A DNA stretch of 17,460 nt from Deltaproteobacteria bacterium (GTDB lineage Bacteria; Myxococcota; Myxococcia; Myxococcales; Myxococcaceae): the NCBI GenBank assembly GCA_016875515.1, contig VGRA01000003.1, positions 1 through 17,460 on the forward strand, written 5' to 3'. The position numbers and the translations under genes are program-made. This document shows positions 1,754 through 17,460 of the stretch, piece after piece. The notes beneath the pieces were generated by a model. That model did not search any database. It was not told the DNA's origin and was given only the letters and a program-made list of their open reading frames with translations. Numbering within the stretch: the stretch's first letter is position 1; each line of letters opens with the position of its first letter.

Positions 1754-1764
1754 GAGGGCACGCC

Positions 1765-3729
1765 ATGCACGCCTCCCGGATGACGTCCGCGCTCGCACTG
1801 ACCCTCCTGACCTGGGCGTGCGGCAGCAACAAGCCCAGCACCGAGCAGCCCGAGGACAACCGCCCGCCCGGCGTGGTGTCCGCGCCGTCCCGCCTGGCGT
1901 GGACGTGCGTGGCGCCGGGGTGTGACGAGACGCAGCAGCTCACCTTCACCGTGCTGGGCACCCGGCGCGCGGCCATCAAGCGCATCCTGCTGTCCGGGGG
2001 CGGCGCAGCCGACTTCAGCTTCACCTCCAGCGAGGAGGCCCCCTTCACCGTGGGGGCGGGCAGCAGCTTCACCGTGGATGTTCGGTACGTGCCCAAGGGG
2101 GCCCCGCCGTCCGGCCCCGCCGAGCTGCGCGTCACCTTCACGGATGCCCTGGCCGAGGAGTCCGAGGACCGGCTGGTGGCCGGGGAGACGGTGGTGCCGC
2201 TGGTGCGCCGCATCGTGGGCGAGGCGCTGCTCGTGGCGGAGCCGGAGACGCTCAAGTTTGGCGCCGTCGGCGTGGGGGCCTCGCAGACGCTCCCGCTCCG
2301 CGTGTCCAACGGCGGCTTCGGCAACATCTCCCTGCAGTTGTTGCCCGCGGACGGCGGCCACCCCGAGGTGCAGGTGCAGTGGCCCACCGACGCGGCGCTG
2401 GCCCCGGACGCGGGCGTGGAGGTCCCGGTGACGTGGACCCCCGCGGCGCCGGCCTACCTCTCCGGGGAGCTGGTCCTGCGCGCCACCGCGGAGGACGTGG
2501 TGCCCGTGACGGTGAAGCTGGAGGGCACCAGCCTCCCGGAGCCGCGCCTGGGGGTAGAGCCGCAGGCCACCGTGGACTTCGGCACGCTCGCCAAGGGGAA
2601 GACGAAGGCGCTGTCGCTCGTGCTGAAGAACCGCGGCGGGCGTGCCCTCACCTTCACCGCCATCACCGTGCAGGACATCCTGGGCAATGTGAAGGTGACC
2701 GCGCCGGCCACCCCCGCGGGGCTCTCACTGCAGCCGCTGGAAAGCCTCCCGCTGCAGCTGCTGGTGGACGCCAAGACCGCCGGGGCGGTGGACGCCCGGG
2801 TGCGCATCTCCAGCAACGACGCGTCGGCCCCGGTCACGGTGGTGAAGGTCACCGGCACCGTGACGGAGCCGCGCGTGGCGCTCACCCCCACCGCGCTGGA
2901 CTACGGCGTGGTGCCGCTCGGGTGGGTGATGAACAAGCCCGTGGAGGTGAAGAACGTGGGGTACGGCACCCTCACGGTGAAGAACATCTCCCTGGTGGGA
3001 GGGTCCAGCCAGCTGTTCTCGCTGTTGGGCCTCCCGTCCCTGCCGCTCACCCTGGAGCGCAACGCGCGCGCCAGCTTCCAGGTGGAGTTCCGTGCGGAGG
3101 CCCCCGCCACCGTGCAGGGCACCGTGGTGGTGGAGACGGACGACGCCACCACCCCCTTCGCCGAGGTGGAACTGGACGCCACCGTGGGCACCTGCGCCCA
3201 GGGCTGCCCCATTGCCAACGGCACCGCCTCCTGCAGCAGCGGCAAGTGCGAGGTGGGGACGTGCAACGCCGGCTGGTACAACACGGACGGCCTGGCGGCC
3301 TCCGGGTGCGAGTGCCAGGACACCTCCAACGATCCCGGTGAGTTCTGCGCGGACGCCCAGTACGCCGGCAACCTGCCGGACAACGGCGCCAGCGCCACCT
3401 GGACGGGACTCCTGCCCATCACCGGGGACGTGGACCTCATCAAGTTCCACGCGAACGACAACAACCAGTTCTTTTACGACGACTTCGACGTCCGCATCTC
3501 CCTGTCCAGCGCGGACCCGGGCATCAGCCTCTGCATCTACCGGCACGGCACCGCGGACGGGGAGAACGACTGCTTCTTCACCGAGGAGACCTGCCCGGCG
3601 GACCGGCAGTACCGCAAGGACGGCAGCTTCGGCACCGAGGACGGCGCGGACTTCGTCCTCAAGGTGTTCCGCACCGCCTCCTCCGTCCCCGCCTGCATCC
3701 CCTACACGGTGTTCATGCGCAACGGCTGA
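1765..3729 (+). CDS. Second choice-of-anchor D lipoprotein with an EGF-like cysteine cluster and a C-terminal beta-sandwich
   Basis: Follows the previous lipoprotein gene by 11 nt and is probably co-transcribed with it. I chose ATG 1765 over GTG 1750 because GAGAGGG at 1752-1758 lies 6 nt before it and the signal sequence then starts MHASRMTSALALTLLTWAC. The lipobox (TWAC, Cys19) is acceptable but not canonical. The 654-residue product carries about four ASH/choice-of-anchor D repeats, for example LKFGAVGVG, VDFGTLAKG and LDYGVVPLG, each followed by an N-x-G turn. From about residue 477 there is a cysteine-rich EGF-like segment (TCAQGCP...CSSGKCEVGTC...GCEC). The final 150 residues resemble a pre-peptidase-type beta-sandwich, with a GDVDLIKFHA strand and a Cys pair in the tail. 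The same repeat class with a different C-terminal head suggests the two genes arose by duplication. A surface role is inferred; no catalytic residues are evident. Confidence 0.85.
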   Translation: MHASRMTSALALTLLTWACGSNKPSTEQPEDNRPPGVVSAPSRLAWTCVAPGCDETQQLTFTVLGTRRAAIKRILLSGGGAADFSFTSSEEAPFTVGAGSSFTVDVRYVPKGAPPSGPAELRVTFTDALAEESEDRLVAGETVVPLVRRIVGEALLVAEPETLKFGAVGVGASQTLPLRVSNGGFGNISLQLLPADGGHPEVQVQWPTDAALAPDAGVEVPVTWTPAAPAYLSGELVLRATAEDVVPVTVKLEGTSLPEPRLGVEPQATVDFGTLAKGKTKALSLVLKNRGGRALTFTAITVQDILGNVKVTAPATPAGLSLQPLESLPLQLLVDAKTAGAVDARVRISSNDASAPVTVVKVTGTVTEPRVALTPTALDYGVVPLGWVMNKPVEVKNVGYGTLTVKNISLVGGSSQLFSLLGLPSLPLTLERNARASFQVEFRAEAPATVQGTVVVETDDATTPFAEVELDATVGTCAQGCPIANGTASCSSGKCEVGTCNAGWYNTDGLAASGCECQDTSNDPGEFCADAQYAGNLPDNGASATWTGLLPITGDVDLIKFHANDNNQFFYDDFDVRISLSSADPGISLCIYRHGTADGENDCFFTEETCPADRQYRKDGSFGTEDGADFVLKVFRTASSVPACIPYTVFMRNG

Positions 3730-3732
3730 CAT

Positions 3733-3752
3733 GCCCGCGTGACGCGGCGGGC
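3733..3752 (+). terminator. Possible hairpin after the lipoprotein pair
   Basis: GCCCGC at 3733-3738 and GCGGGC at 3747-3752 form a perfect 6-bp GC stem with an 8-nt loop. The stem begins 3 nt after the stop codon of the second lipoprotein gene. No T-tract follows, so this is at best a partial match to an intrinsic terminator. In such GC-rich DNA, chance hairpins are common. Confidence 0.3.
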
Positions 3753-3802
3753 GCCCCCGGGCTCCCCCGCCTCGCGCGCCCCGTGGCAGCGTGCAGCGTC
3801 CC

Positions 3803-5179
3803 ATGAAGGTTACCGGCCCCAAGCGCAGCGCGCCCCCGCCTCCCGCGGACCCGGCTGCACGTGGGGCTGCCGCGTCGCCGTCTGCCGCGCGCACGCCGCG
3901 CCCTGACGGCTTCTCGGGAGGGACGCCGGCTGCCCCAGGCCCGCTCCTGGCCCCTCTGCCGGCCCGCACCGTCCCGGCGCTTCCCCGCTTCTGCGACCCG
4001 GCCTTCGAGGCCGCGCTGGACGCCGCCACCTTCAGCCGGGCCCGCCCCGGCAACAACGTCCAACTGCTGCAGGACGGGGCCGAGTCCTTCCCCGCCCGCG
4101 ACGCCCTCATCGACGGGGCGAAGCAGAGCATCTGCCTGCAGACCTTCATCTTCGACTCGGACGAGACCGGCTGGGCCCTGGCGCGCCGGCTCGCGCAGAA
4201 GGCGAAGGACGGGGTGAAGGTGCGCGTCATCTACGACGCCGTGGGCTCGCAGCGCGCGGACCCCGCCCTGTTCGAGCACCTGCGGCAGGCCGGCGTGGAG
4301 GTGCGCGCCTACGGTCAGCCGTGGAAGGTGTGGGACCTCAACGACCGCTGGCACGAGAAGCACCTCGTGGTGGACGGCCGCGCCGCCATCACCGGCGGGA
4401 TGAACATCGCCAACGAGTACGCCTACGGCGGCTCGGGGCGCGCGGTGCTCTCCCGCGGCAAGGTGGCGGAGCAGCCCTGGCGGGACGTGGACGTGAAGCT
4501 GACCGGACCGGTGGTGGGGGACGCGGCGCGCGCGTTCATCCGCAACTGGGAGTTGCTCGGGGACGCGCTGCCGGGGGCGGACCGCTCTGCGCTGCTGCCG
4601 CGGCTGTCCCCCGCTCCCGGCGGCCACCGCGTCCGGCTGGTGCAGGCGGACCCGGAAGCCGAGACGGCCGGGCGCACCACGGCGCTGTACCTGGAGGCCA
4701 TCCGCCACGCGCGCCGCTCCATCACGCTGGAGAACGCCTACTTCGTCCCTCCGGAGGAGGTGCGCACGGCGCTGGTGGAGGCGGCCCGCCGCGGCGTGGA
4801 GGTGCGGGTGCTGACCAACTCGCGCGCCTCCACGGACTTCGGTGTGGTGTCGGACGCGGGCCGGTACTTCTACGACGCGCTCGTGCATGCCGGGGTGAAG
4901 GTGTACGAGACCACCGGCGGTACGCTGCACGGCAAGGTGGCCACCTTTGACGGGGAGTTCAGCATCGTGGGCTCGGTGAACCTCAACGGCCGCTCCGCCC
5001 ACCAGGACACGGAGGTGGCCGCCGCCATCGACGACGGCGGGACCGCCTCCGCGCTCGTCTCCCGCTTCGAGGCGGGGCTGCGGCAGGCCCGGCAGGTGAC
5101 CGCCGCGGAACTGGAGCACGAAGGGTTCCTCGCCAACCTCCGGCAGTGGGCCGTCTCCTCGTTCGCATGGATGCTCTGA
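3803..5179 (+). CDS. Phospholipase D-family protein, cardiolipin-synthase-like (two HKD motifs)
   Basis: Both catalytic HxKxxxxD motifs of the phospholipase D superfamily are intact: HEKHLVVDG starting at about residue 184 and HGKVATFDG at about residue 376, counted from ATG 3803. They are followed by the expected GGMN and GSVNLNGRS segments. In this family the two histidines act together in phosphatidyl transfer or hydrolysis, as in ClsA/ClsB cardiolipin synthases. Unlike ClsA it has no N-terminal membrane helices; instead the first 60 or so residues are a Pro/Ala/Arg-rich low-complexity leader. A soluble or peripheral ClsB-like enzyme is likely, and another phosphodiester substrate is possible. 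No strong ribosome binding site precedes either ATG 3803 or GTG 3791, so the start is uncertain. The 3' end overlaps the next gene by 13 nt. Confidence 0.88.
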   Translation: MKVTGPKRSAPPPPADPAARGAAASPSAARTPRPDGFSGGTPAAPGPLLAPLPARTVPALPRFCDPAFEAALDAATFSRARPGNNVQLLQDGAESFPARDALIDGAKQSICLQTFIFDSDETGWALARRLAQKAKDGVKVRVIYDAVGSQRADPALFEHLRQAGVEVRAYGQPWKVWDLNDRWHEKHLVVDGRAAITGGMNIANEYAYGGSGRAVLSRGKVAEQPWRDVDVKLTGPVVGDAARAFIRNWELLGDALPGADRSALLPRLSPAPGGHRVRLVQADPEAETAGRTTALYLEAIRHARRSITLENAYFVPPEEVRTALVEAARRGVEVRVLTNSRASTDFGVVSDAGRYFYDALVHAGVKVYETTGGTLHGKVATFDGEFSIVGSVNLNGRSAHQDTEVAAAIDDGGTASALVSRFEAGLRQARQVTAAELEHEGFLANLRQWAVSSFAWML

Positions 5180-5736
5180 CGCGGCTGCTGGCCACCGCGC
5201 AGGCGCGGGAGGCGGAAGGGGACCGGCAGGCCGCCTGCGCCCTGCTGGACGAGGCCCCGCCGCCGCTGCGCGAACGGGCGCTGTGGGCCTACGCCCGCGC
5301 GGCGCTCGCCTTCCGTGGGGGAGAGTTGGAGCAGGCCGAGGCGCTCGCCGCCGAGGCTGTACAGCGCGAGCCGGCCATCCCCGAGTACCGCGCCACGCTC
5401 GGGGCGGTGCTGCTCGAGCGGTACCAGCGCGCGCGCGAGGCAGGGCTGCTCGAGCGGGCACTGCGCGAACTCCAGTCCGCGGTGGCCCCCGGGCCGCTGT
5501 TGCCGCACGCCCGCGCGCAGTTGTCCCTCGCGCAGTTGCTCGCCGGGCAGCCCGCAGACGCTCTTCAGAGCGCGGAGGCGGCGCTGGGGCAGGACGGCCG
5601 CTTCGTTCCCGCGCTCTGGCACCGCGCGCTGGCGCTGGAGGCGCTCGGGCGGGCGGAGGAGGCGTCTGTCGCCGTGCGCGCCGTCCTGGCCGAGCGGCCG
5701 GACTTCGCCCCCGCGCTCGCGTGGCACCCGCGCTGA
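5167..5736 (+). CDS. Small TPR-repeat protein
   Basis: A 189-residue, Ala/Leu/Glu-rich all-helical protein with three to four degenerate tetratricopeptide repeats, recognisable by A-x-x-G-x-x-x-x-A spacing (for example ALAFRGGELEQAEALAAEA, SLAQLLAGQPADALQSAEAAL and ALALEALGRAEEASVAVRAVL). TPRs mediate protein-protein contacts, and no catalytic domain is present. There is no signal peptide, so a cytoplasmic location is expected. I chose ATG 5167, which starts MDALTRLL and lies inside the last codons of the phospholipase D gene. GTG 5146 is an alternative. The 13-nt overlap suggests translational coupling and a shared function with the HKD enzyme, but the partner is unknown. Confidence 0.75.
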   Translation: MDALTRLLATAQAREAEGDRQAACALLDEAPPPLRERALWAYARAALAFRGGELEQAEALAAEAVQREPAIPEYRATLGAVLLERYQRAREAGLLERALRELQSAVAPGPLLPHARAQLSLAQLLAGQPADALQSAEAALGQDGRFVPALWHRALALEALGRAEEASVAVRAVLAERPDFAPALAWHPR

Positions 5737-5774
5737 GGACGGGCGCCCGGCTCCGCAGCTCGCCGCCTGGCCTC

Positions 5775-5801
5775 GGCCGCGCTCAGCTCCTCAGCGCGGC
5801 C
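5775..5801. terminator. Inverted repeat between convergent genes, possible bidirectional terminator
   Basis: GGCCGCGCT (5775-5783) pairs perfectly with AGCGCGGCC (5793-5801): a 9-bp stem with a 9-nt loop. It lies in the 46-bp gap and last codons between the convergent TPR and DUF423 genes and includes the DUF423 stop codon. It could stop transcription in both directions. There is no T-run on either side, so the call rests on stem strength and position only. Confidence 0.35.
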
Positions 5802-6148
5802 ACCCCCAGCAGCGCCCAGCCGGCCATGAAGCACACACCGCCCAGCGGCGTGATGGCCCCGAAGGTGCGCACCCCGGAGAGCGCGAGCGCATAGAGGCTT
5901 CCGGAGAACAGCACCGTCCCCACGGCGAAGCACGCGCCCGCGGCGGTGGAGAGCGCGCCGGGGCGCGCGGAGGCGAGCCACGCCACCCCCAGCAGCGCCG
6001 CGGCGTGCACCAGCTGGTAGCGCGCCCCCGTCTCGAAGGCGGCGAGCAGGTCCACCGGGAGCCGGGCCTTGAGCGCGTGCGCCCCGAAGGCGCCGGCCGC
6101 CACGCCGAGGAAGCCGTTGAGGGAGGCCAGCAGGAGCCAGGGTTTCAC
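5783..6148 (-). CDS. DUF423 family small membrane protein
   Basis: A 121-residue integral membrane protein with four predicted helices. It has the DUF423 hallmarks: an N-terminal N-G-F-L-G-V-A-x-G-A-F-G-A-H-A-L segment, then Y-Q-L-V-H-A, a small-residue helix, G-S-L-Y-A-L, and a final T-P-L-G-G-x-x-F-M-x-G-W. The family is widespread, roughly 120 residues long and of unknown biochemical role. Start: GTG at 6148 (VKPWLLLASLNG), preceded by AAGGAG with an 8-nt spacer, so the longer upstream frame is not used. It follows the zinc-knuckle gene by 13 nt, and the Shine-Dalgarno overlaps that gene's stop, which indicates one transcription unit. Confidence 0.88.
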   Translation of the reverse strand: MKPWLLLASLNGFLGVAAGAFGAHALKARLPVDLLAAFETGARYQLVHAAALLGVAWLASARPGALSTAAGACFAVGTVLFSGSLYALALSGVRTFGAITPLGGVCFMAGWALLGVAALRS

Positions 6149-6161
6149 GGGTGCATCTCCT

Positions 6162-6608
6162 TCAGTGCGGTCGCAGCAGGTCGCGCAGGGCGGATGGGTC
6201 GGCCGGGGCGAGGGGAGGGGAGAAGAGCACCGCCAGCGCCTGCCCCGAGAGCGCCTCGTCCGGGGTGGCACCGAGCACCCCGGCCGCCTCCAGCACCGCC
6301 TCCCGCAAGAGCCCCATCTCCACGTACACGGCCGAGAGGCGCGTGCGCGCCGGCCAGTCCAGCTCCGCCTTGAGCGCCGCGGTGCGGTCCCGGAGCGGCA
6401 CCTTGCGCCCGTCCTTCAGGTGGACGAGCGGCTCGGGGCCCGGCTCCTCCTCCTCCAGCAGCGCAGGCCACAGCCGGCTCACCCCCGGGTCCCCTGCCAG
6501 GAGCAACGTCCCCAGCCGGGCGGCGCAGCCGGCACAGGAGAACAGGCCTCCGGGGACGGGGAGGGAGGCGGGACGCTCGCAGACATGACAGGGGCCGGTG
6601 CCGGACAC
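6162..6608 (-). CDS. Hypothetical protein with an N-terminal CxxC...CxxC zinc knuckle
   Basis: A 148-residue cytoplasmic protein. Cys7, Cys10, Cys25 and Cys28 form a CxxC-x14-CxxC pattern typical of a treble-clef or zinc-ribbon fold (CHVC...CAGC). An acidic stretch (LLEEEEPGPEP) follows, then a basic segment around VHLKDGRKVPLRDRT and a helical C-terminal half. I do not recognise the family. Zinc binding is inferred from spacing alone, and protein or nucleic-acid binding are both possible. The GTG start at 6608 has no convincing ribosome binding site but gives the complete cysteine cluster; no later start would keep it. It is the first gene of a two-gene unit with the DUF423 gene and is divergent from the HAD hydrolase gene. 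Confidence 0.65.
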   Translation of the reverse strand: MSGTGPCHVCERPASLPVPGGLFSCAGCAARLGTLLLAGDPGVSRLWPALLEEEEPGPEPLVHLKDGRKVPLRDRTAALKAELDWPARTRLSAVYVEMGLLREAVLEAAGVLGATPDEALSGQALAVLFSPPLAPADPSALRDLLRPH

Positions 6609-6686
6609 GGTGGGAGAAGGTAGGAGCCAGCGCCGCCCGCTGCAATCCCGTGGTACAAGGGGAGGCCCTTAGCGAGGAGTACACCC

Positions 6687-7541
6687 GTGGCTGCCCTCCG
6701 CTGCATCGTCCTGGATTTCGACGGCACCTTCACCCGCGTGGAGGAGGAGGCAGCCCCCTTCGAGCGCGCCTACCGCGAGGCGCTCACGGACCTGCTGCGC
6801 GAGGACATCACCCCCCTCTGGGCGGAGGAGGTGGCCCACGTCAACGGCCGGCCCCACGAGTTCGGCTGGAAGGTGGACGACCGCATCGTCGCCCCCTGCG
6901 CGGACCCCTACATCCTCGCCACCGCGGTGGCCCACCGGCTGTTCGACCGGCTGGGGATGCTGAAGAAGACCGGCTTCCGCTTCGAGGTGTTGCAGGCGCT
7001 CTACCGGGACGCCTACCGCCACAGCGCCACCGCCTTCCGCCCGGAGGCGAAGGAGGCGCTCGAGGGGCTGCTGGACCTGGGGCTGCCCGTCTACGTGGTG
7101 ACCAACTCCAACACCGACGTGGTGGAGAAGAAGGTCCGCAAGCTGGCCCCCCGCGGCGTCGAGCGCGTGGTGGTGCGCGGGGACGCGCGGAAGTTCATCG
7201 TCGAGGAGCCGCAGACGGCGGACGCCCGGTTTGCCGGCGTCCCGGCCGAGCGCACCCTTCCCGGCCTGCAGGGGCGCCCCGTCTACCTGCGGCGCGGCCA
7301 CTACTACGACGTGCTGCGGCGGGCGTGGAACGACACCGGTGCCACCCCGGAGCAGACGCTGGTGTGCGGGGACATCTACGAGCTGGACCTCGCGCTGCCG
7401 GAGGCGCTCGGGTGCCACCTGCACCTGGTGGAGCGGGACAACTCGCTGCCGTACGAGAAGCAGGCGGTGCTGGCGAGCGGCCGCGGGGCCATAAGCACGG
7501 ACCTGCTCGCCATGGTGGAGCGCGTGCGGCGCGCCGCCTGA
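6687..7541 (+). CDS. HAD-superfamily hydrolase
   Basis: All four haloacid dehalogenase signatures are recognisable. Motif I is DFDGT near residue 10, where Asp10 would be the nucleophile and Asp12 the acid/base. Motif II is TNSN (Thr139), a basic residue in RKFIV near residue 170 fits motif III, and motif IV is GDIYELD (Asp229, Asp234). These residues support Mg-dependent phosphoester or phosphoanhydride hydrolysis. The long segment between motifs I and II (about residues 20-130) would be a helical C1-type cap that sets substrate choice. The substrate cannot be told from sequence. It is 284 residues, cytoplasmic, with no signal peptide. The GTG start is preceded by CGAGGAG at 6673-6679, a good Shine-Dalgarno about 7 nt away. 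Confidence 0.85.
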   Translation: MAALRCIVLDFDGTFTRVEEEAAPFERAYREALTDLLREDITPLWAEEVAHVNGRPHEFGWKVDDRIVAPCADPYILATAVAHRLFDRLGMLKKTGFRFEVLQALYRDAYRHSATAFRPEAKEALEGLLDLGLPVYVVTNSNTDVVEKKVRKLAPRGVERVVVRGDARKFIVEEPQTADARFAGVPAERTLPGLQGRPVYLRRGHYYDVLRRAWNDTGATPEQTLVCGDIYELDLALPEALGCHLHLVERDNSLPYEKQAVLASGRGAISTDLLAMVERVRRAA

Positions 7542-7544
7542 CGG

Positions 7545-7682
7545 ATGGCGAACATGTTCAAGTCCCCGCTGCTCTCCCGGGTACGTCCCTGCCTGGCCGT
7601 CACCGGCGTGGTCCCCGGGTGCGTGGGGTTCTGGCTCGTCCCCGCACGTTCCACCCCCGAGCCGGAGGGCCCATCCCCATGA
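7545..7682 (+). CDS. Possible 45-residue small ORF linked to the next gene by an ATGA overlap
   Basis: A short frame starts at ATG 7545, 3 nt after the HAD hydrolase stop, and ends at TGA 7682. That stop overlaps the ATG of the downstream membrane protein gene (ATGA at 7679-7682). The peptide begins MANMFKSPLLSRVRPCLAVT and has a weakly hydrophobic centre (GCVGFWLV) and a Pro-rich tail. It could be a small membrane peptide, a leader that couples translation of the next gene, or chance. No ribosome binding site stands out before it. I know of no homologue. Confidence 0.3.
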   Translation: MANMFKSPLLSRVRPCLAVTGVVPGCVGFWLVPARSTPEPEGPSP

Positions 7683-8119
7683 GCGGAGGCGAAGACAAGG
7701 ACGGCGGGCGGCGGGCCCTGTCGCTCGTCTTGTCCATCGTTGCCATGGGACTCACCTATGGGGGCCAGCTGCTGCTCGTGCTCGTGGTGGTCCTGGTGGG
7801 GCCGGAAGACCTCCGGCGGCTGGTGTCCGGAAAGGGCATGGCGGAGGGGCTGCTCTGGGCGGCATTCGCCCTGCCGGGGGCGGCAGCGGGGCTCGGGGCG
7901 TGGTGGCCGTGGAGGGCCGTGCTGGGTCCGGTGGGTCTGCTGCTCGTCTCCGGGGCGGGCGCTGCCTGCTGCGCCGCACCGCAGTGGGCCTGGATGGCGT
8001 TGCGCCTGCAGGTCCCGGCTGGAGTCTGGATGGCCCTGCCCCCGGCGACCACCTTCGGCCTCGCCTTGTGGTTGGCGCAGAGAAGGCGTCCATCCCCCCC
8101 GGCTCAGCCGCCCGCGTAG
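7679..8119 (+). CDS. Hypothetical four-helix membrane protein
   Basis: A 146-residue protein with a short polar N-terminus (MSGGEDKDGGRR) and four hydrophobic segments at about residues 14-41, 56-77, 81-102 and 110-133. It ends in a short basic, Pro-rich tail (AQRRRPSPPAQPPA). I do not recognise a family. The start is ATG 7679 because GGAGGG at 7664-7669 lies 9 nt before it and the upstream part of the same frame is a shadow of the HAD gene. Its 3' end overlaps the convergent methyltransferase gene by 16 nt. A membrane location is well supported; the function is unknown. Confidence 0.7.
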   Translation: MSGGEDKDGGRRALSLVLSIVAMGLTYGGQLLLVLVVVLVGPEDLRRLVSGKGMAEGLLWAAFALPGAAAGLGAWWPWRAVLGPVGLLLVSGAGAACCAAPQWAWMALRLQVPAGVWMALPPATTFGLALWLAQRRRPSPPAQPPA

Positions 8120-8883
8120 CGCCAGGCCACCTGTCCCGCCGCGAGCAGGTTCTCCACCCGCAGCAGAGGCTCCCCCGATGCGGCGAGCCTCTCCGCCGAC
8201 GCACGGAATGCCTCCCGCGGCGCCAGCCCCGCCCGCGTCGCGTCCCACGCCGCCGTCCAGCGCCCGAGGAAGCCGTGGATGGCCGTGCCCGGCTTCACCG
8301 AGCGGCGCAAGTCCCTCGGCAGCCAGTCCCGGAACTGGATGGGGGCAAAGCCGCGCGTGAAGTCGGTGGCGAGCCAGAGCGCCTCGGGGCGCAGCGCGCC
8401 GTCCACCTTCCGGAGCAGGTGGGCGGTGCACAGCTCCCCGTCCGCGGACGCGCTGCCCTCCACGAGCAGCCCGCCCTCTGCGAGCCCCGTGCCCAGCAGT
8501 GCGTGGGCGGCTTCCGCCTCTGCCCCGGTGTAGCCGCGCAGGACGTTCATGGCGCGCACCAGCCGGGCGGGTGCAAGACCGTTCAAGTCGAACCCACCCT
8601 CTCGCAGCGCAACGCCCGCCCCTGCGCAGGGGTCCGCCGCTGTCCGAAGTGCGCCCGGGTCCCGCTCCACGCCCACAACGGCGAGGGACGGGTTGACCGA
8701 GCGCACCGCCGTGGCCAGCTCCAGCAGCGTCCACGGCTCCGCGCCGAAGCCTACGTCCACGACGGGGGCCTCGCCCGGGGCCTCGAGCAGCGGGCGCTCG
8801 GTGGCGAGCAGCCACGCGTCCAGCGCGGCCAGCCTCCCGGCCCGCGTGCGCCCGCGTGTCCTCCTGTCGGGCGGGGTGTTCAC
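8104..8883 (-). CDS. SAM-dependent class I methyltransferase (putative)
   Basis: A 259-residue protein with a Rossmann-type S-adenosylmethionine site. Motif I is VVDVGFG at about residues 41-47, directly followed by AEPWT. The next strand is AVVGVERDP, whose Glu73 would hold the ribose hydroxyls. A G-L-A-E-G-G-L-L-V-E-G segment fits the later core strand. The substrate cannot be deduced. Start: GTG 8883, preceded by GTGGAGG with a 9-nt spacer. The open frame continues upstream to 8976, but that part has low-complexity composition and no better ribosome binding site. It lies 181 nt downstream of the lipoprotein gene on the same strand, so co-transcription is possible but not obvious. Confidence 0.75.
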   Translation of the reverse strand: MNTPPDRRTRGRTRAGRLAALDAWLLATERPLLEAPGEAPVVDVGFGAEPWTLLELATAVRSVNPSLAVVGVERDPGALRTAADPCAGAGVALREGGFDLNGLAPARLVRAMNVLRGYTGAEAEAAHALLGTGLAEGGLLVEGSASADGELCTAHLLRKVDGALRPEALWLATDFTRGFAPIQFRDWLPRDLRRSVKPGTAIHGFLGRWTAAWDATRAGLAPREAFRASAERLAASGEPLLRVENLLAAGQVAWRYAGG

Positions 8884-10746: not shown

Positions 10747-13700
10747 TCAGTGGCGCGTGTCCGCCTCGCCGGGCAGCTGCGTTGCGGCCGGCGCGGAGAG
10801 CAGTTGCAGCAACTGCTGCGTGGACAGCTTCCCGGCGCGGTCCTTCCCCGCGAGCACCTGCCCCACGAGTGCGCGCTTGTCCCCGTGCAGATCCAGCACC
10901 CGCTCCTCAATGGTGCCCCGCGACACCAGCCGGTACACCGTCACCGGGCGGGACTGCCCCAGCCGGTGGGCGCGGTCGGAGGCCTGGTCCTCCACCGCCG
11001 GGTTCCACCACGGGTCCAGGTGGACCACGTAGTCCGCCCCGGTGAGGTTGAGCCCCGAGCCGCCTGCCTTGAGGGACACGAGGAACACCTCGCCCTCGCC
11101 CCCCTGGAAGCGCCGCACAAGCTCCGCGCGCTCCTTGCGAGGCGTCTGGCCGTCCAGCCAGAGCAGCCGCACCCCGCGCCCCTCCAGCGCCGCCCGGGCC
11201 AGGGAGAGGTGCGAGGTGAACTGGCTGAAGACGAGCGCCCGGTGCCCCTCCGCGCGCAGCTCCTCCACCAGTTCGCACAGCCGGTTCAGCTTGGAGGAGA
11301 GCGGGTCCGCGGAGGCGTCGTACAGCTTGGCGTGGCACGCGGCCAGCCGCAGCCGGGTGAGCGCGGCCAGCACCTGGATGCGCCGCTGGGCCTGTCCCCG
11401 GGGGGGCCCCGAGGTGGACTCCAGCTCCGCCACCGTCGCCAGCCGGGCGTCCTCGTACAGCTGCCACTCCGCGGGCGAGAGGACCACCGGGACGCGCACC
11501 TCCGTGCGGGGCGGAAGCTCCGTGGCCACCTCCGCCTTGGTCCGGCGCAGCAGGAACGGCTCCAGCACCCGGGCCAGCGCGGGGGCCGCCTCCGGGTCCA
11601 GCTTCTTCTCAAGGGGCAGCGCGAACCGGTCCCGGAAGCTGTCCCAGCTGCCCAGCAGTCCCGGCAGCACCACCCGGTAGAGGCTCCACAGCTCCCCGAG
11701 GTGGTTCTCCAGCGGCGTCCCGGAGAGCCCCACGCGGAAGCCTGCCTGCAGCTCCCGCGCGGCCCGCGCCCGCGCCGTGCCCGGGTTCTTGAGCGCCTGC
11801 GCCTCGTCGAACACCGCCGTCGCGAACTTCACGGCACACAGCCGCTGCGCGTCCCGCGCCAGCAGCCCATGGCTGCACACCAGCACGTCCCCGGGCCCCA
11901 GCGAGGACAGCAGCCGCACGCGGTCCGGCGCGTCCGCGTAGACGTGCAGTGTCAGTGACGGGGCGAACCTCCGCGCCTCGTCCACCCAGTTGAAGCCCAC
12001 CGAGGTGGGGGCCACCACCAGCTGCGGCCCGCCCGCCGCCCGGTGCAGCAGCAGGGCCAGGGCCTGCACCGTCTTGCCCAGCCCCATGTCGTCCGCCAGC
12101 ACGCCGCCCGCGCCCCAGGAGGCCAGCCGCGCGAGCCACTCGAACCCCTCGCGCTGGTAGGGTCGCAGCTCCGCACGGAGGCCGCGGGGCAGTCGCACCC
12201 GAAGGGTGCGCGAGGCGAAGATGCGCGCCGACAGCTCGCGCCACGCGCGGTCCGCGGACACGTCCGCTCCGGCTTCCTCCAGCGCGTCCAGCGCCTCGGC
12301 GGAGGAGAGCCCCACCTCCACGCCATGCCGCCCCGTCCACGCGTGGTCGGAGAGCCGCTGCAGCTTCGCCCGCAGCGCCTCTGTCAGCTCCACGAAGCTG
12401 CGCTCCTCCACGCGCACGAAGCGCGCCTTGCGCCGCACCGCGTCCAGCAGCACCGCCAGTTCCACCCGCTCGCCGCCCACCGACAGCCCGCCCGCCGCCC
12501 CGAACCAGTCCTTCTTCCGCTCCAGCGCCACCTTCAGCTGGGGCGGCACCGCCTTCGCCGCCACGGCCAGCTGCGGCCCGGTCCATTCGACCGGCGGGGC
12601 AGGGGAGAGCCCCTGAGCGTCTGCCAGGAAGCACAGCGCGTCCTCGGGGGTGGCGAGCAGCCAGGTGAAGGGTGCCTCGGTGGCGTGGGCGCGCCCCAAC
12701 GGCAGCCGCTCCACGAACGCACGGGCCAGCGCGCGCTCTCCGGGGAAGTCCCGCCGCGCGTGCACCGCCTCCGCCCCGCGCCGGACGTGCACGGTGGGGG
12801 GGCCGTCTCCCGGTGGGAACGAGGGGGCATCCGGAAGGGCCCGCATCCGCAGCTCCAGTACGCAGCTGCCGTCCGCCTGCAGCTGCAGCCGCAGCACCGG
12901 GGCGAGCTCGGCCGGCAGCTCCTCTCCCAGAAGCGAGCGCGGCAGCGCCACCGGCAGCCGCGCGGACAGCCGGGAGAGCCGCTGCAGCAACTGCGCGCGG
13001 GCCTCCGCTGGGAAGTCCCCGCCGTGCCGGCGCAGCATGCCCAGCGCGGCCGCCGCCTCCGGCGGGATGTCCACCACCAGCAGCCGCTGCCCGTGGGACT
13101 CCAGCCACGGGAAGGGCTCGCGGGGGCCCAGCCCCTCGCTGCGGCGCAGCACCTCCGCCAGCAGAACCGGCGCCCCTCCCACGGCGGGGGACAGCGCCAC
13201 GCCGTCGCCGCGCTCCTCGGCGTGCAGCCCCAGGGGCGCGGAGACCACGGCCAGCGGTGCGTCCAGCGCGTCCGCGTGGAATACGGCCGGGTGGCCCACC
13301 AGCGCGCGGAACACCTCGCCGCGCGGCGGCTCGTCCCGCCGGGCCGCGAGCAGCAGCAGCCGGGCCGCCTCCAGGTCTGCCGGCCGTGCCTCCCCCGGGG
13401 GAAGCCCCAGCACCTTCTCCGCCGACACGCGCTGCGAGCGCAGGTGCGGCTGGGCGTACAGCCGCATCCCCAGCGCGCCCACCCGCCAGGACAGCTTCGG
13501 CGCGGCGCCCGCGGTGGCGGCAGGTGCTGCAATGCCGTCCAACTCCCGCAGCGCCCGCTCCCACGCGGGCAGCGCCAGCCCCTCGGCCAGCGCCGAGAGC
13601 GCGTCGCGGTTCGCCGGGTCATGCAGGTGCAGCAGCGCCCGCTGCACCGCCACGAGCGCGTGGCAGCAGGCGTCCGCCTCGCACGTGCAGCGGGACTGGC

Positions 13701-14331
13701 CGTCGCCTGACAGCGAGAGCGTCACCTCGTGCAGCCGCGGCTCGGACGGCCCCGGCGCGAAGGCCTTGCGACCGTCCCGCACGGTGAAGCCGGTGCCGTC
13801 CCCGGAGGGACGAAGCGGGAGGCGGGACAGCGCGGCGCCCGGCAGTGGTGCACCGGAGGCTGCATGCCGCGCGTGGAGGGCGCCCAGCGCGCGCGCCAGC
13901 CCGTGCAGGCGGGCGTCCGCGGGCTGCGCGAGCAGCGACGCGAGGCCCGCCCGCCCCTCCTCGGCGCTCTCCGCCTCGGCAGCCACGAAGCGGTAGGCCG
14001 CCGCCGGCAGCACCTGCCGCAGGTGGGGCACGTAGGTGAGGTGCGAGGCGGAGTGGCGCACGGACTCGGTGGTGGCCAGCTCGGAGAAGCGGGAGACGGA
14101 CAGCACCCAGCGCAGCGAGCGCGCCTGCGCCTCCTCCAGGTGGGGCGCGAGCGCCTCGGCGCAGGTGTCCAGCAGGTGCAGCAGCCCCCTCTCGGAGAGC
14201 CACCCCCGCAGCTGCAGGTCCCGCTCGAAGTGCGCGTGCTCGCCGTCCACGGCGCGGCAGGATGGAGCAGCCCTGCGGGTGCGCTCCAGCGCGAACTGGA
14301 GGAAACGAGGCGCACATGTGCCTTCATCCAC
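10747..14331 (-). CDS. SNF2-family DNA helicase/ATPase with an N-terminal SWIM zinc finger
   Basis: A 1194-residue Swi2/Snf2-type DNA-dependent ATPase, expected to translocate on duplex DNA and remodel protein-DNA complexes. Near residue 215 a SWIM zinc finger is seen (CTCEADACCH, fitting CxC-xn-CxH). A long poorly conserved middle follows, typical of bacterial SNF2-associated regions. Helicase core: Walker A DDMGLGKT at about residue 752; motif II DEAQ near 840, followed by LSGTPLENHLGELWSL; then the C-terminal RecA lobe with ALVFSQFTSHL, GGSGLNLTGADYVVHLDPWW and motif VI QASDRAHRLGQ near 1115. All core motifs look intact. The start is the GTG at 14331; no clear ribosome binding site decides between this and later starts. 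It is divergent from the pilin-like gene and convergent with the DUF4142 gene. A role in repair or transcription is inferred from the family. Confidence 0.92.
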   Translation of the reverse strand: MDEGTCAPRFLQFALERTRRAAPSCRAVDGEHAHFERDLQLRGWLSERGLLHLLDTCAEALAPHLEEAQARSLRWVLSVSRFSELATTESVRHSASHLTYVPHLRQVLPAAAYRFVAAEAESAEEGRAGLASLLAQPADARLHGLARALGALHARHAASGAPLPGAALSRLPLRPSGDGTGFTVRDGRKAFAPGPSEPRLHEVTLSLSGDGQSRCTCEADACCHALVAVQRALLHLHDPANRDALSALAEGLALPAWERALRELDGIAAPAATAGAAPKLSWRVGALGMRLYAQPHLRSQRVSAEKVLGLPPGEARPADLEAARLLLLAARRDEPPRGEVFRALVGHPAVFHADALDAPLAVVSAPLGLHAEERGDGVALSPAVGGAPVLLAEVLRRSEGLGPREPFPWLESHGQRLLVVDIPPEAAAALGMLRRHGGDFPAEARAQLLQRLSRLSARLPVALPRSLLGEELPAELAPVLRLQLQADGSCVLELRMRALPDAPSFPPGDGPPTVHVRRGAEAVHARRDFPGERALARAFVERLPLGRAHATEAPFTWLLATPEDALCFLADAQGLSPAPPVEWTGPQLAVAAKAVPPQLKVALERKKDWFGAAGGLSVGGERVELAVLLDAVRRKARFVRVEERSFVELTEALRAKLQRLSDHAWTGRHGVEVGLSSAEALDALEEAGADVSADRAWRELSARIFASRTLRVRLPRGLRAELRPYQREGFEWLARLASWGAGGVLADDMGLGKTVQALALLLHRAAGGPQLVVAPTSVGFNWVDEARRFAPSLTLHVYADAPDRVRLLSSLGPGDVLVCSHGLLARDAQRLCAVKFATAVFDEAQALKNPGTARARAARELQAGFRVGLSGTPLENHLGELWSLYRVVLPGLLGSWDSFRDRFALPLEKKLDPEAAPALARVLEPFLLRRTKAEVATELPPRTEVRVPVVLSPAEWQLYEDARLATVAELESTSGPPRGQAQRRIQVLAALTRLRLAACHAKLYDASADPLSSKLNRLCELVEELRAEGHRALVFSQFTSHLSLARAALEGRGVRLLWLDGQTPRKERAELVRRFQGGEGEVFLVSLKAGGSGLNLTGADYVVHLDPWWNPAVEDQASDRAHRLGQSRPVTVYRLVSRGTIEERVLDLHGDKRALVGQVLAGKDRAGKLSTQQLLQLLSAPAATQLPGEADTRH

Positions 14332-14355
14332 GCACCCGGGCGCGCGGTGGCCTTC

Positions 14356-14384
14356 TTGAGTGCCCGTCAGCCGGGCGCTAGGCT
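14356..14384 (+). promoter_or_regulatory. Possible sigma-70-type promoter for the pilin/cytochrome/Cys-rich operon
   Basis: TTGAGT (14356-14361) and TAGGCT (14379-14384) are separated by exactly 17 bp in the 77-bp gap between the divergent helicase and the PilX-like gene. They match the consensus at 4 of 6 and 3 of 6 positions, with the key first T, second A and last T of the -10 kept. Transcription would begin about 17 nt before the PilX-like ATG. Confidence 0.35.
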
Positions 14385-14408
14385 GTCCGCAGTCGCTCCC
14401 TGATCCGG

Positions 14409-15182
14409 ATGATGCACGCCACCCCCAGCGTTGAATTGGTACGGACGCCGCGCGTTGCCGCGGCGCGGTCGCGGCGTGGCGAGCGCGGGTTCGCGCTCAT
14501 CATCATCCTCGGGCTCGTGGGCATGCTCACCGCGGGCGCGGCGTACACGCTCACCTCTGTGGGGCGCGAGGCGTCGCTGCAGGCGCAGCTGCGCAAGTCC
14601 AACGAGGCCTTCTTCGCCGCCGAGGCGGGGCTTTCCGAGGGGCGCGAGCGCGCGCGGCTCATCACGCAGCGCATGGGCAACATCTCCACGTACACGCCCA
14701 TCATGGCGGACCTGCCGCTCGCCTCGGGCGTGGCGGTGAGCCCCGGGGACGTCTGGTACGACCTCATCCCCAGCACGCCCTACACGCTGCAGACCACCGC
14801 GCAGGTGACCGCGGGCGCGGTGGACGCCAACGTCTCGGTGGCGGACCGCGAGAACAAGGACCAGGCCTCCGTGAAGTTCGAGGCCTGGCCGGGCGCCACG
14901 GACATCTCGTTCCGCGTCTTCCTCCGGGACGACGTGGACGAGTCGCCGCGGGACGGCACCAAGGACGCCAACGCCGCGGTGTGGATCATCTCCGTGGGTG
15001 AGGCGGCGGTGCCGGGCGGCAACCCCATCCGGCAGGTGGTGCAGGCGCTGGTCTCCTTCACCCCCGGCGCCGTAACCGAGGGTTGTGTGGGCCAGAAGGG
15101 CGGCTGCTCGGACAAGTCGAACATCAACTCGACGGACGCGAATAACCCGGACATGTCCGGGGGCGCGAAGAAACTGTTCTGA
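14409..15182 (+). CDS. PilX-like type IV pilin/pilus-assembly protein
   Basis: A 257-residue protein with a basic leader and a prepilin-type segment GERGFALIIILGLVG. Prepilin peptidase would cut after Gly27, leaving Phe28 and a roughly 22-residue hydrophobic helix that anchors the protein or packs into a pilus core. There is no Glu at position +5 of the mature protein, as in GspK/PilX-type minor pilins. The next segment, SNEAFFAAEAGLSEGRERAR, is the AAEAGL signature of PilX N-terminal domains. The remaining globular domain is not recognised; its tail has one Cys pair (CVGQKGGC). The start is ATG 14409, with a second ATG at 14412 and only a weak ribosome binding site. No other pilin or PilY1 gene lies next to it in this window. 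It is first in a tight unit with the cytochrome gene 11 nt downstream. Confidence 0.8.
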   Translation: MMHATPSVELVRTPRVAAARSRRGERGFALIIILGLVGMLTAGAAYTLTSVGREASLQAQLRKSNEAFFAAEAGLSEGRERARLITQRMGNISTYTPIMADLPLASGVAVSPGDVWYDLIPSTPYTLQTTAQVTAGAVDANVSVADRENKDQASVKFEAWPGATDISFRVFLRDDVDESPRDGTKDANAAVWIISVGEAAVPGGNPIRQVVQALVSFTPGAVTEGCVGQKGGCSDKSNINSTDANNPDMSGGAKKLF

Positions 15183-15193
15183 GGGTGTTCCGC

Positions 15194-15619
15194 ATGGACC
15201 GTCGGACGACAGCCCTGGCAATCCTCCTCCTCCCGCTGCTGGCGCACGCCGGCAACGAGAAGGACGGGGCCCGGCTCTTCCGCGACCAGTGCGCCCACTG
15301 CCACCACGCCCGCCCCCTGGACCGGCCCGCTCCTCCCCCGCTGCGCCGCGACAAGGGGCCGGACCTGGTCCAGCGCTACCACTACGGCCCCGAGAAGTTC
15401 GACACCTGGGTCCAGCAGCCCGGGAGCCGCCCGTCCGGCAGCTACTGCAAGGCCCGCCCGCTCGCTCACGAGGACCTGGACTCGCTGCAGCGCTACCTGT
15501 TCACCGTCAGCCTCCCCATCCCGGAAGACCGCGCCGCACGCAGGCTCCGCGAGGTGCAGCGCGCAGCAGAGCGCCAGACCGGCGGGACCGGCTATGACAA
15601 GCAGGGGTCCACGCCATGA
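15194..15619 (+). CDS. Small exported c-type cytochrome, no distal methionine
   Basis: A 141-residue protein with a Sec signal peptide (MDRRTTALAILLLPLLAHA) and a single haem-attachment site CAHCH (Cys33, Cys36, His37) in the context GARLFRDQCAHCH, typical of class I cytochromes c. The C-terminal helix AHEDLDSLQRYL is also typical. In most relatives the methionine ligand precedes this helix. Here the mature protein has no methionine, and Cys85 (SGSYCKARPL) occupies the usual place. His/Cys ligation is known in SoxA and TsdA. His63, His92 or Lys86 are other candidates. I chose ATG 15194 over GTG 15185 because GAGGG at 15181-15185 lies 8 nt before it. Its stop overlaps the next start as ATGA (15616-15619). 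Location: periplasm or outside the cell. Confidence 0.8.
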   Translation: MDRRTTALAILLLPLLAHAGNEKDGARLFRDQCAHCHHARPLDRPAPPPLRRDKGPDLVQRYHYGPEKFDTWVQQPGSRPSGSYCKARPLAHEDLDSLQRYLFTVSLPIPEDRAARRLREVQRAAERQTGGTGYDKQGSTP

Positions 15620-17460
15620 GCAAGGGCATTCAGCTGTTGCTCATCCTGTTGACCCTGCTCTTCGGCGGCTGGGCCAACGAGGCCTACGCCCAGTGCCCCG
15701 CCGGCACATGCCAGACGGGCACCTACGAGTGCAATTGCTACAACTACGAGTGCAACTGTTATAATTACAGCTGCAACTGCTACTGGTATCAATGCAACTG
15801 CTACACGCGCTGCTCTTGCTGGTACGTACCGCGGACGTGCTGTGACTGCTGGGGCTGCTGGGACTGCGGCTACTGGACGTGCAGCTGCTGGACGGAGTGC
15901 AGTTGGTGCCAGGCGTGCAGCACCTGCCGCGCCTGCAGCACCTGCCGCGCCTGCAGCAGGTGCCCCATCTGCACGTCCTTCGACTTCAATACGAACAACA
16001 GCCACTGCGGCGGGTGCAACCGGCCGTGCGGCAGCGGCACCAACTGCTGCGGCGCGGCCTGCCGGAACTACCAGACGGACTCCGCCAACTGCGGCAGCTG
16101 CGGGAACAACTGCGCCAACAGCTTCGGCAGCAACGGCATCTGTTGCAGCGGCGGCTGTAAGAACAAGGCCACGGACAACAACAACTGCGGCAGTTGCGGC
16201 AACGTCTGCACGGGCGGGAGGTTCTGCAGCAACGGCAGATGCGTCTGCCCGTCCGGCCAGTCGGACTGCGGCGGGGCCGGGTGCCGGAACCTCCAGAACG
16301 ACGCCAGCTACTGCGGCAGCTGCAGCACCAGCTGCATCTCCCAGTTCGGCGCCAGCGGCGGCATGTGCTGCTCCGGCACCTGCCGCAACAAGCTGAGTGA
16401 CAGCAACAACTGTGGCCGCTGCGGCAACGTCTGCACGGGCGGCAAGTTCTGCAGCAACGGCGCCTGCGTCTGCCCGTCCGGCTTGACGGACTGCAACGGC
16501 ATCTGCAGGAACCTTCAGACGGATGCCTCCAACTGCGGCACCTGCGGCAACGCGTGCCCGGCCTCCGCCAACACCTGCTGCTCCGGGTCCTGCAAGAACC
16601 TGCAGACGGACAACAACAACTGCGGCAGCTGCGCCAACGTGTGCAAGGGCGGCAAGTTCTGCTCCTCCGGCACCTGCGTCTGCCCGTCCGGCCAGACGGA
16701 CTGCGGCGGCACCTGCCGCAACCTCCAGAATGACGTCAATAACTGCGGCAGCTGCGGCAAGGTGTGCCCTGGCGGCAACAACTGCTGCTCCGGCACCTGC
16801 AGCAACCCGCAGACGGACAACAACAACTGCGGCGGCTGCGGCAAGGTGTGCACGGGCGGCAAGTTCTGCTCGTCCGGCACCTGCGTGTGCCCGGCGGGCC
16901 AGACGGATTGCAACGGCGTCTGCAAGAACCTGCAGAACGACGTCAGCAACTGCGGCGCCTGCAACAACGTCTGCCCCGCGGGCAACACCTGCTGCTCGGG
17001 GTCCTGCAAGAACCTGAAAACGGACGTCAACAACTGCGGCACCTGCGGCAAGAAGTGCACCGGCGGGAAGATCTGCAGCAACGGGAGCTGCGTGTGCCCG
17101 GCTGGCCAGACGGACTGCGGCGGCATCTGCAAGGACCTGCAGAACGACCTCAACAACTGCGGCAGCTGCGGCAACGTCTGCCAGGGCGGCAAGACATGCC
17201 AGGCGGGGGTGTGCAAGTGCCCCTCCGGCCAGGACTTCTGCGGCACGCCCTACCAGTGCAACTGCACCAATTACAGCTGCAACTGCACCACCTACCAGTG
17301 CAATTGCTACAACTACAGCTGCAACTGCTACTCGTACTCTTGCAACTGCTACTGGTACCAATGCAACTGCTACACGCGCTGCTCTTGCTGGTACGTACCG
17401 CGGACGTGCTGTGACTGCTGGGGCTGCTGGGACTGCGGCTACTGGACGTGCAGCTGCTGG
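15616..17460 (+). CDS. Secreted cysteine- and aromatic-rich repeat protein (partial, runs off the window)
   Basis: The frame is open for all 615 codons to the window edge. ATG 15616 overlaps the cytochrome stop and is preceded by AGGGG with an 8-nt spacer. A signal peptide (MSKGIQLLLILLTLLFGGW...AYA) probably ends before Gln26. By manual count about 132 of 615 residues are Cys. Layout: four heptads of type Y-x-C-N-C-Y-x (37-64); a Trp/Cys block with RCSCWYVPRTCCDCWGCWDC (65-92); CSTCRA hexapeptides (about 98-118); twelve Stig1-like modules with N-C-G-x-C-G-x-x-C cores (about 128-543); six more heptads (546-587); and a second copy of the Trp/Cys block (588-615). Stig1-type modules occur in secreted proteins and are expected to be disulfide-bonded. 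The aromatic-Cys heptads are not a family I know. Function is unknown; metal binding, cross-linked matrix and redox roles are all possible. Confidence 0.8.
   Translation, partial: MSKGIQLLLILLTLLFGGWANEAYAQCPAGTCQTGTYECNCYNYECNCYNYSCNCYWYQCNCYTRCSCWYVPRTCCDCWGCWDCGYWTCSCWTECSWCQACSTCRACSTCRACSRCPICTSFDFNTNNSHCGGCNRPCGSGTNCCGAACRNYQTDSANCGSCGNNCANSFGSNGICCSGGCKNKATDNNNCGSCGNVCTGGRFCSNGRCVCPSGQSDCGGAGCRNLQNDASYCGSCSTSCISQFGASGGMCCSGTCRNKLSDSNNCGRCGNVCTGGKFCSNGACVCPSGLTDCNGICRNLQTDASNCGTCGNACPASANTCCSGSCKNLQTDNNNCGSCANVCKGGKFCSSGTCVCPSGQTDCGGTCRNLQNDVNNCGSCGKVCPGGNNCCSGTCSNPQTDNNNCGGCGKVCTGGKFCSSGTCVCPAGQTDCNGVCKNLQNDVSNCGACNNVCPAGNTCCSGSCKNLKTDVNNCGTCGKKCTGGKICSNGSCVCPAGQTDCGGICKDLQNDLNNCGSCGNVCQGGKTCQAGVCKCPSGQDFCGTPYQCNCTNYSCNCTTYQCNCYNYSCNCYSYSCNCYWYQCNCYTRCSCWYVPRTCCDCWGCWDCGYWTCSCW
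15724..15807 (+). repeat. Four tandem 21-bp units coding Y-x-C-N-C-Y-x heptads (N-terminal block)
   Basis: Units read YECNCYN, YECNCYN, YSCNCYW and YQCNCYT. They sit just after the signal peptide and the CPAGTC segment of the Cys-rich protein. Synonymous codons vary between units (TGC AAT TGC, TGC AAC TGT), so the units are not recent identical copies. Confidence 0.9.
15772..15891 (+). repeat. 120-bp direct repeat, copy 1
   Basis: Matches 17341-17460 at 119 of 120 positions. The only difference I find is T at 15789 against C at 17358, a silent Tyr codon change. It encodes the last part of the heptad block and the Trp/Cys block. Identity stops sharply on the left side at 15772. Confidence 0.95.
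15916..15951 (+). repeat. Two perfect 18-bp tandem units coding CSTCRA
   Basis: TGCAGCACCTGCCGCGCC occurs twice in a row, followed by a partial third unit (TGCAGCAGG). They encode CSTCRA-CSTCRA-CSRC, a hexapeptide repeat with Cys every third residue. This is a likely site of slippage. Confidence 0.9.
16003..17247 (+). repeat. Tandem Stig1-like module array, alternating two module types
   Basis: Twelve modules share the core N-C-G-x-C-x-x-x-C. One type continues GGKFCSxGxCVCPSGQTDC (A); the other continues to a CCSGxC motif (B). The order read is B, B, A, B, A, B, A, B, A, B, A, A. The A+B pair repeats every 207-225 bp (69-75 residues); equivalent A cysteines fall at 16186, 16411, 16621, 16828 and 17035. 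Units differ at many positions, so they are older than the flanking 120-bp repeat. Confidence 0.85.
17251..17376 (+). repeat. Six tandem 21-bp units coding Y-x-C-N-C-(Y/T)-x heptads (C-terminal block)
   Basis: Units read YQCNCTN, YSCNCTT, YQCNCYN, YSCNCYS, YSCNCYW and YQCNCYT. The last unit and most of the one before it lie within the 120-bp repeat. There are two more units here than in the N-terminal block, showing copy-number change. Confidence 0.9.
17341..17460 (+). repeat. 120-bp direct repeat, copy 2 (reaches the window edge)
   Basis: Same sequence as 15772-15891 except for one silent base. The right end of the repeat is not visible because the window stops inside it, so the duplicated segment may be longer. 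Confidence 0.95.

Follow-up and report, generated by a model that had tools for sequence, protein, structure and literature searches.

The 17,460-nucleotide stretch of DNA analyzed here (the window) is the entire contig C3 of the myxobacterial genome bin G000, and it closes within an open reading frame of unusual composition, which begins with an ATG at position 15616 and stays open for 615 codons on the plus strand, up to the final nucleotide of the window (15616..17460). The encoded protein begins with a signal peptide (15616..15690), identified by eye from a hydrophobic stretch and the sequence AYA-Q, and continues through four heptads of the form YxCNCxx (15724..15807; CNC at residues 39, 46, 53, and 60), a block rich in tryptophan (Trp) and cysteine (Cys), read from the sequence (15808..15894), CxxC repeats that directly follow this block (CQACSTCRACSTCRACSRC / QACSTCRACSTCRACSRC; 15895..15972), an array of 12 Stig1-like modules (15973..17217), six more YxCNCxx heptads (17251..17376; CNC at residues 548, 555, 562, 569, 576, and 583), and a second Trp/Cys block (17377..17460) that is truncated by the contig end. 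The frame contains 132 Cys among its 615 codons (21%), with a peak density of 28 per 100 residues, and includes 25 tyrosines (Tyr), 14 Trp, 22 CxC, and eight CC. Nearly all of the Tyr and Trp residues lie in the end blocks, 17 in residues 26-125 and 18 from residue 535 onward, the 415-residue core having two Tyr and no Trp. Metallothioneins are small proteins with CxC and CC clusters and without aromatic residues; the window protein shares such clusters but differs in its signal peptide, its modules, its many aromatic residues, and its size of at least 615 residues. Thus, the layout given in the original prediction, which was made from the letters of this DNA alone, namely, a secreted protein unlike metallothioneins, with a signal peptide, about 132 Cys, and matching end blocks around a 12-module Stig1-like array, is upheld by the composition, the repeat sites, and the profile score of the core described next; the CxxC repeats and the pilus-type genes upstream, described below, are additions to it.

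The core is of a known kind, and to that extent, the protein is less undescribed than the title of the original prediction implied. It scores 145.2 bits against the Pfam family Stig1 (PF04885; gathering cut-off 24.1) and 182.4 bits against the NCBIfam family NF041328, MXAN_6577-like cysteine-rich protein (cut-off 100), where the best stretch, residues 452-544, falls within the core; these are the only matches of the protein in either database. Twelve N-x-C-G-x-C-like sites are spread over residues 129-513, with the later spacing alternating between 28 and 41, and therefore, the count of 12 modules is correct. A structure model of residues 119-363, with a mean predicted local distance difference test score (pLDDT) of 84.5, is a string of small beta hairpins; no sequence match for the window protein was found in the PDB. 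The search with the whole protein, dominated by the Stig1 core, recovered 3858 proteins at an expectation value (E) of 0.001 or below among 7992 scored. The core is thus shared with the MXAN_6577-like and Stig1 proteins, but three tandem CxC heptads are absent from all 120 listed of these 3858 relatives. Stig1 matches occur in 89 of the 98 genomes searched, including the bin itself, and a plasmid search with the window protein matched three records, in the core only. When codons were compared position by position, silent and changed codons numbered 59 and 376, respectively, among the 12 modules, and 54 and 83 among the heptads; there is no excess of silent changes in either set, so this comparison lends no support to strong purifying selection.

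The two Trp/Cys copies, compared at 15777-15891 and 17346-17460, differ at a single position over 115 nucleotides, and the final 102 nucleotides of the window are an exact copy of 15790-15891, so that the contig terminus coincides with the end of the repeat. Stopping at a repeat would be common assembly behavior, and the absence of a stop codon before the window edge therefore reflects an assembly edge.

Immediately upstream, two genes on the same strand give this frame a context. The cytochrome c gene at 15185..15619, encoding 144 amino acids, ends in a stop codon that overlaps the start of the Cys gene as ATGA. TfcP is reported to be a noncanonical His/Cys cytochrome c of Myxococcus xanthus cluster_1, defined by a CxxCH motif, a distal Cys that replaces Met/His as the heme ligand, and a charged C-terminal extension; that same account has it as a periplasmic protein that stabilizes PilY1.1 by promoting its calcium binding and that was undetected in pili (PMC8833165). 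In the window cytochrome, the heme-binding motif CAHCH (15290..15304, read from the sequence) and the Cys of SYCKARPL (codon 15446..15448, at the position of the unusual second heme ligand of TfcP) align with those of two TfcP-like relatives, and the C-terminal stretch is rich in Arg and Glu, so that all three defining features are present. All its Pfam and NCBIfam cytochrome matches fall below the cut-offs; judged by these sequence features, the gene is nevertheless classified as a TfcP-like cytochrome. The preceding gene (14409..15182) encodes a PilX-like minor pilin of 257 amino acids, which matches PilX_N (PF14341) at 18.3 bits, below the cut-off of 25.5, and no NCBIfam family, and shows 29-43% identity to the pilX-like genes that adjoin tfcP in relatives.

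The position of the Cys frame is that of a PilY1 gene. Apart from G000, a tfcP match was found in 9 of the 59 other genomes searched, and in all nine, the gene after tfcP encodes a full-length PilY1 of 1381-1432 amino acids that starts between -3 and +22 nucleotides from the tfcP stop. Likewise, a 2026 survey of 67 Myxococcota genomes places tfcP immediately upstream of pilY1.1 only (PMC13190605). In G000, a relative's PilY1 used as the query found a single place, on contig C11 (11555-15109, minus strand), the match starting at residue 223 of 1415 with 42% identity, and the Pfam PilY1 model pointed, below its cut-off, to the same place and to no other. The frame there (11555-15118, minus strand) runs off the contig end and has lost its N-terminus; it shows 42% identity over about 1190 amino acids to the PilY1 of locus L306, which passes both PF05567 and DUF4114. 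Four tfcP-bearing genomes have two copies of the PilY1.1/1.2 type, and in each of them it is the copy linked to tfcP that gives the higher score against the C11 protein. Downstream of the C11 PilY1 frame, in the same orientation, lie three genes whose prepilin motifs score above the Pfam cut-off, the middle one of which also matches PilW at 23.6 bits (cut-off 26); from their order and from inspection of their N-termini, we read these as putative pilV, pilW, and fimU. There are thus strong reasons to infer that C3, which ends after pilX-tfcP, and C11, which begins inside pilY1, are halves of one minor-pilin/PilY1.1 operon. Taken together, the two contigs would hold the same kinds of genes as M. 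xanthus cluster_1 (PilX1, PilW1, PilV1, FimU1, PilY1.1, and TfcP), with tfcP overlapping the PilY1 slot; what differs is that a Cys/aromatic Stig1 protein starts at the PilY1 position. The 615 codons available up to the contig edge contain no match to the PilY1 beta-propeller (PF05567).

It appears probable, therefore, that the Cys frame belongs to a minor-pilin/PilY1.1 operon of a type IVa pilus system, where it encodes either an N-terminal extension of PilY1 or a separate secreted partner of it; the association with minor pilins comes from the PilX-like and TfcP-like genes directly upstream and, through the proposed link between the contigs, from the pilin-type genes of C11. Between the two versions, we slightly prefer an N-terminal extension of the PilY1 tip adhesin of this organism, to which we give about an even chance, because the Cys frame starts where PilY1 starts in the relatives and because Cys-rich stretches recur in PilY1-type frames across the phylum. 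A density of at least 10 Cys per 100 residues was found in 17 of 62 long PilY1-type frames, in nine of these 17 within the first 500 residues; the frames came from 58 loci and were chosen for length or score, four of them being second frames not shown to be PilY1. One such frame, of 1932 codons (L358, on contig C22 of genome G059), contains, near its N-terminus, two Stig1-like sites and a Cys density of up to 20 per 100 residues, and passes the Stig1 cut-off (24.7 against 24.1 bits) while falling below that of PF05567 (21.8 against 28.1); we call it PilY1-like because many PilY1 frames, including those of L441 and L442, places that pass PF05567, align with it at 26-31% identity along more than 1000 residues. 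The other version, in which a gene of its own for a secreted partner stands between tfcP and pilY1, falls somewhat short of an even chance and is supported by the arrangement in genome G150 (contig C12, L453), where a PilY1 gene (56 bits) lies between two same-strand genes with Stig1 arrays, 294-2570 and 5826-8165 on the minus strand, with 780 and 759 codons and 139 and 115 Cys, respectively. Stig1 or Cys-rich modules are thus fused to PilY1 in G059 and encoded beside it, in separate genes, in G150, both being genomes from the phylum of the bin. These two are the only frames or loci with at least two Stig1-like sites among 70 pilus loci (795 kilobases), and the aromatic heptads were found in neither, by pattern scan of L453 and by reading of L358. 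In the library searched, no paper combines PilY1 with STIG1, and one combines Stig1 with a Myxococc- name.

As separate observations on PilY1-type frames, several of them have Cys-rich stretches of other kinds, that of L457 (contig C223 of genome G193) with up to 21 Cys per 100 residues, and the PilY1-like protein of L316 (contig C10 of genome G075; 757-6243, minus strand; 1828 amino acids; DUF4114 below the cut-off) carries a Cys-rich insertion immediately ahead of the NLLEP motif, close to where C11 begins.

A number of findings weigh against placing the frame in a PilY1 operon. No sequence bridging C3 and C11 was found in the bin, and their ends do not overlap at any length from 12 to 399 bases; the bin itself (3.9 megabases in 904 contigs) is 87% complete and 3.4% contaminated. 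The C11 protein stays below the Pfam cut-offs, with 20.1 of 28.1 bits for PF05567 and 21.2 of 27 for DUF4114. Of 29 PilY1.1-type loci, 15 could be read by the motif script, and these have no more than 3-5 Cys ahead of the NLLEP motif; no gene intervenes between tfcP and pilY1 in any of the nine relatives, so that fusion and partner would both be unusual for the clade. The tfcP-linked PilY1 frames of relatives contain 21-25 Cys in total, with no Cys/aromatic block in those read, and the window frame differs from relatives in passing from the signal peptide straight into heptads, although a PilY1.1 N-terminal domain may yet follow beyond the contig end. Given that Stig1 matches are present in 89 of 98 genomes, the nearness of such modules to PilY1 in two of 70 loci may be due to chance. 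Finally, among 145 genomes searched in the order and 195 in the phylum (two sets that overlap and include the bin itself), G000 alone has the end block at E of 0.001 or below, and the model of the heptad block, with a pLDDT of 41.6, is unusable.

The end blocks were searched separately, as the original prediction had proposed, because the Stig1 core swamps the whole-protein search. For the N-terminal block (residues 24-124), a search with a length limit over 5.8 billion sequences, in which four candidates were scored, gave one match at E of 1 or below, P0122 (E 2.9e-6; 47% identity over 85% of the block), which leads to no characterized family. Nor do the Pfam and NCBIfam matches, confined to the core, supply a named family for the end blocks; the description of the protein as undescribed-looking thus survives for the end blocks, within the searches made, and holds less well for the core. 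The tail of P0122, used as the query, recovered P0123 (86% identical) and, each at E of about 0.001, P0124 and P0125; all four proteins carry the prepilin N-terminal motif. In P0122-P0124, YxCNCxx heptads are followed by CSTCxxC-type repeats in the same order as in the window, the heptads of P0125 being degenerate; the prepilin-type proteins differ in that the block is C-terminal, the Stig1 array is lacking, and the tail of P0122 has no Trp. The score of the P0122 tail against the block, 279, was reached by none of 500 shuffles of each kind, whether of composition (110 +/- 13), of the segments between Cys (162 +/- 18), or with Cys held fixed (190 +/- 14), and the likeness therefore exceeds Cys spacing; for P0125, the weakest match, one of 500 segment shuffles equals its score. 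For repeats of this sort, common descent and convergence are indistinguishable. The prepilin N-terminus of the proteins with the end-block pattern suggests, at the level of sequence, a connection with pili that would favor placing the Cys frame in the pilus operon. Tentatively, the heptad/CxxC block may even represent a surface module of type IV pilus systems that is transferable and so far undescribed, borne by the PilY1 tip in the myxobacterium and by prepilin-like tails elsewhere, possibly as a disulfide/aromatic pad for gripping surfaces or for cross-linking at the tip of the pilus.

If the frame indeed encodes pilus-tip equipment, the protein would be exported via its signal peptide, form a disulfide-bonded rod upon oxidation in the periplasm, and join the minor pilins and PilY1 at the pilus tip. 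The array of Stig1 modules would then serve as a stiff spacer of small beta-hairpin modules, with the Cys/Tyr/Trp end blocks as putative contact surfaces for the substrate, other cells, or neighboring tip subunits. Variation of the PilY1 N-terminus is thought to tailor the pilus tip, and the variants described in the survey carry vWFA, DUF4114, or neither (PMC13190605). A core of known kind combined with an end-block module that matched no named family in the searches made is likely to be a new form of PilY1-associated tip equipment. Should this be borne out, a Cys rod of twelve modules with an aromatic-Cys pad at either end would give the pilus tip a new design, and a pad shared with prepilin-like proteins would be a searchable mark of a surface-contact module. 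An odd orphan frame would thus be explained through its genomic context rather than through its composition.

The most serious competitor of a role in the pilus, although unlikely, is that the frame encodes a stand-alone secreted protein of the MXAN_6577/Stig1 type that happened to land between tfcP and pilY1. Such an origin would agree with the NF041328 score of the core (182 bits against a cut-off of 100), the spread of Stig1 matches over most genomes, and the lack of a Cys block in the readable PilY1.1 N-termini (15 of 29 loci), but the overlap of the frame's start with the tfcP stop resembles the start of PilY1 in relatives, Stig1/PilY1 pairs occur both fused and flanking in G059 and G150, and the end-block pattern is shared by prepilin proteins. 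Distinctly less probable is a metal-binding or redox-active matrix, in which the thiols of the CxC, CC, and CxxC motifs coordinate metal or undergo thiol/disulfide cycling, perhaps together with the adjoining cytochrome. The density of these motifs and the cytochrome c gene next door are what one would expect of such a matrix; the evidence against it is indirect, in that the core is a Stig1 array and the cytochrome is TfcP-like, TfcP being reported as a periplasmic protein that aids calcium binding by PilY1.1 and was undetected in pili (PMC8833165). Nothing that we found points to the metal-sequestering matrix or the independent surface polymer of the original prediction, the genomic context placing the gene in a type IVa pilus minor-pilin/PilY1 operon; of the cross-linked surface structure it proposed, the independent polymer is unsupported, and a disulfide-linked structure may exist as a part of the pilus tip. 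Very improbably, the C-terminal block was misjoined through the 102-nucleotide repeat at the exact end of which the contig terminates, but the four heptads that precede the first Trp/Cys copy and the six that precede the second are unlike in both residues and codons, so that this is not the same stretch read twice and the second copy is real sequence.

Several observations on the end-block pattern stand apart from these arguments. Neither the N-terminal block nor P0122 has a relative in the viral contigs searched, and P0122 has none in phages. The tail of P0122 matches in one of the five genomes of one set, and, among 398 Bacilli genomes, in nine at E of 0.001 or below, at 13 places (best 6.5e-6); four of these places (L378, L383, L384, and L388), as well as L374, proved to be simple repeats or unrelated frames, and Bacillota as the host of P0122-P0125 is a guess from composition. 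Scanning viral and genome contigs with a loose CNC-heptad DNA pattern gave mostly unrelated frames among the matches listed, and a tighter YxCNC pattern gave nine stretches in viral contigs, none of them convincing. Two phage frames (L098, 9803-10450, plus strand; L075, 2-694, minus strand), both matching phrog_26958, a family of unknown function, close with long arrays of CNCN[FY]C[PT] heptads in a register different from that of the window; similar frames occur in L065, L112, L127, and L054.

Elsewhere in the window, an Ala/Val-rich open frame of 589 codons runs antisense to the Cys gene (15592-17361, minus strand) and is probably a by-product of base composition. At the opposite end of the contig, 26-1753 and 1750-3729 (plus strand) encode neighboring proteins with HYDIN/ASH-type immunoglobulin domains above the Pfam cut-off.

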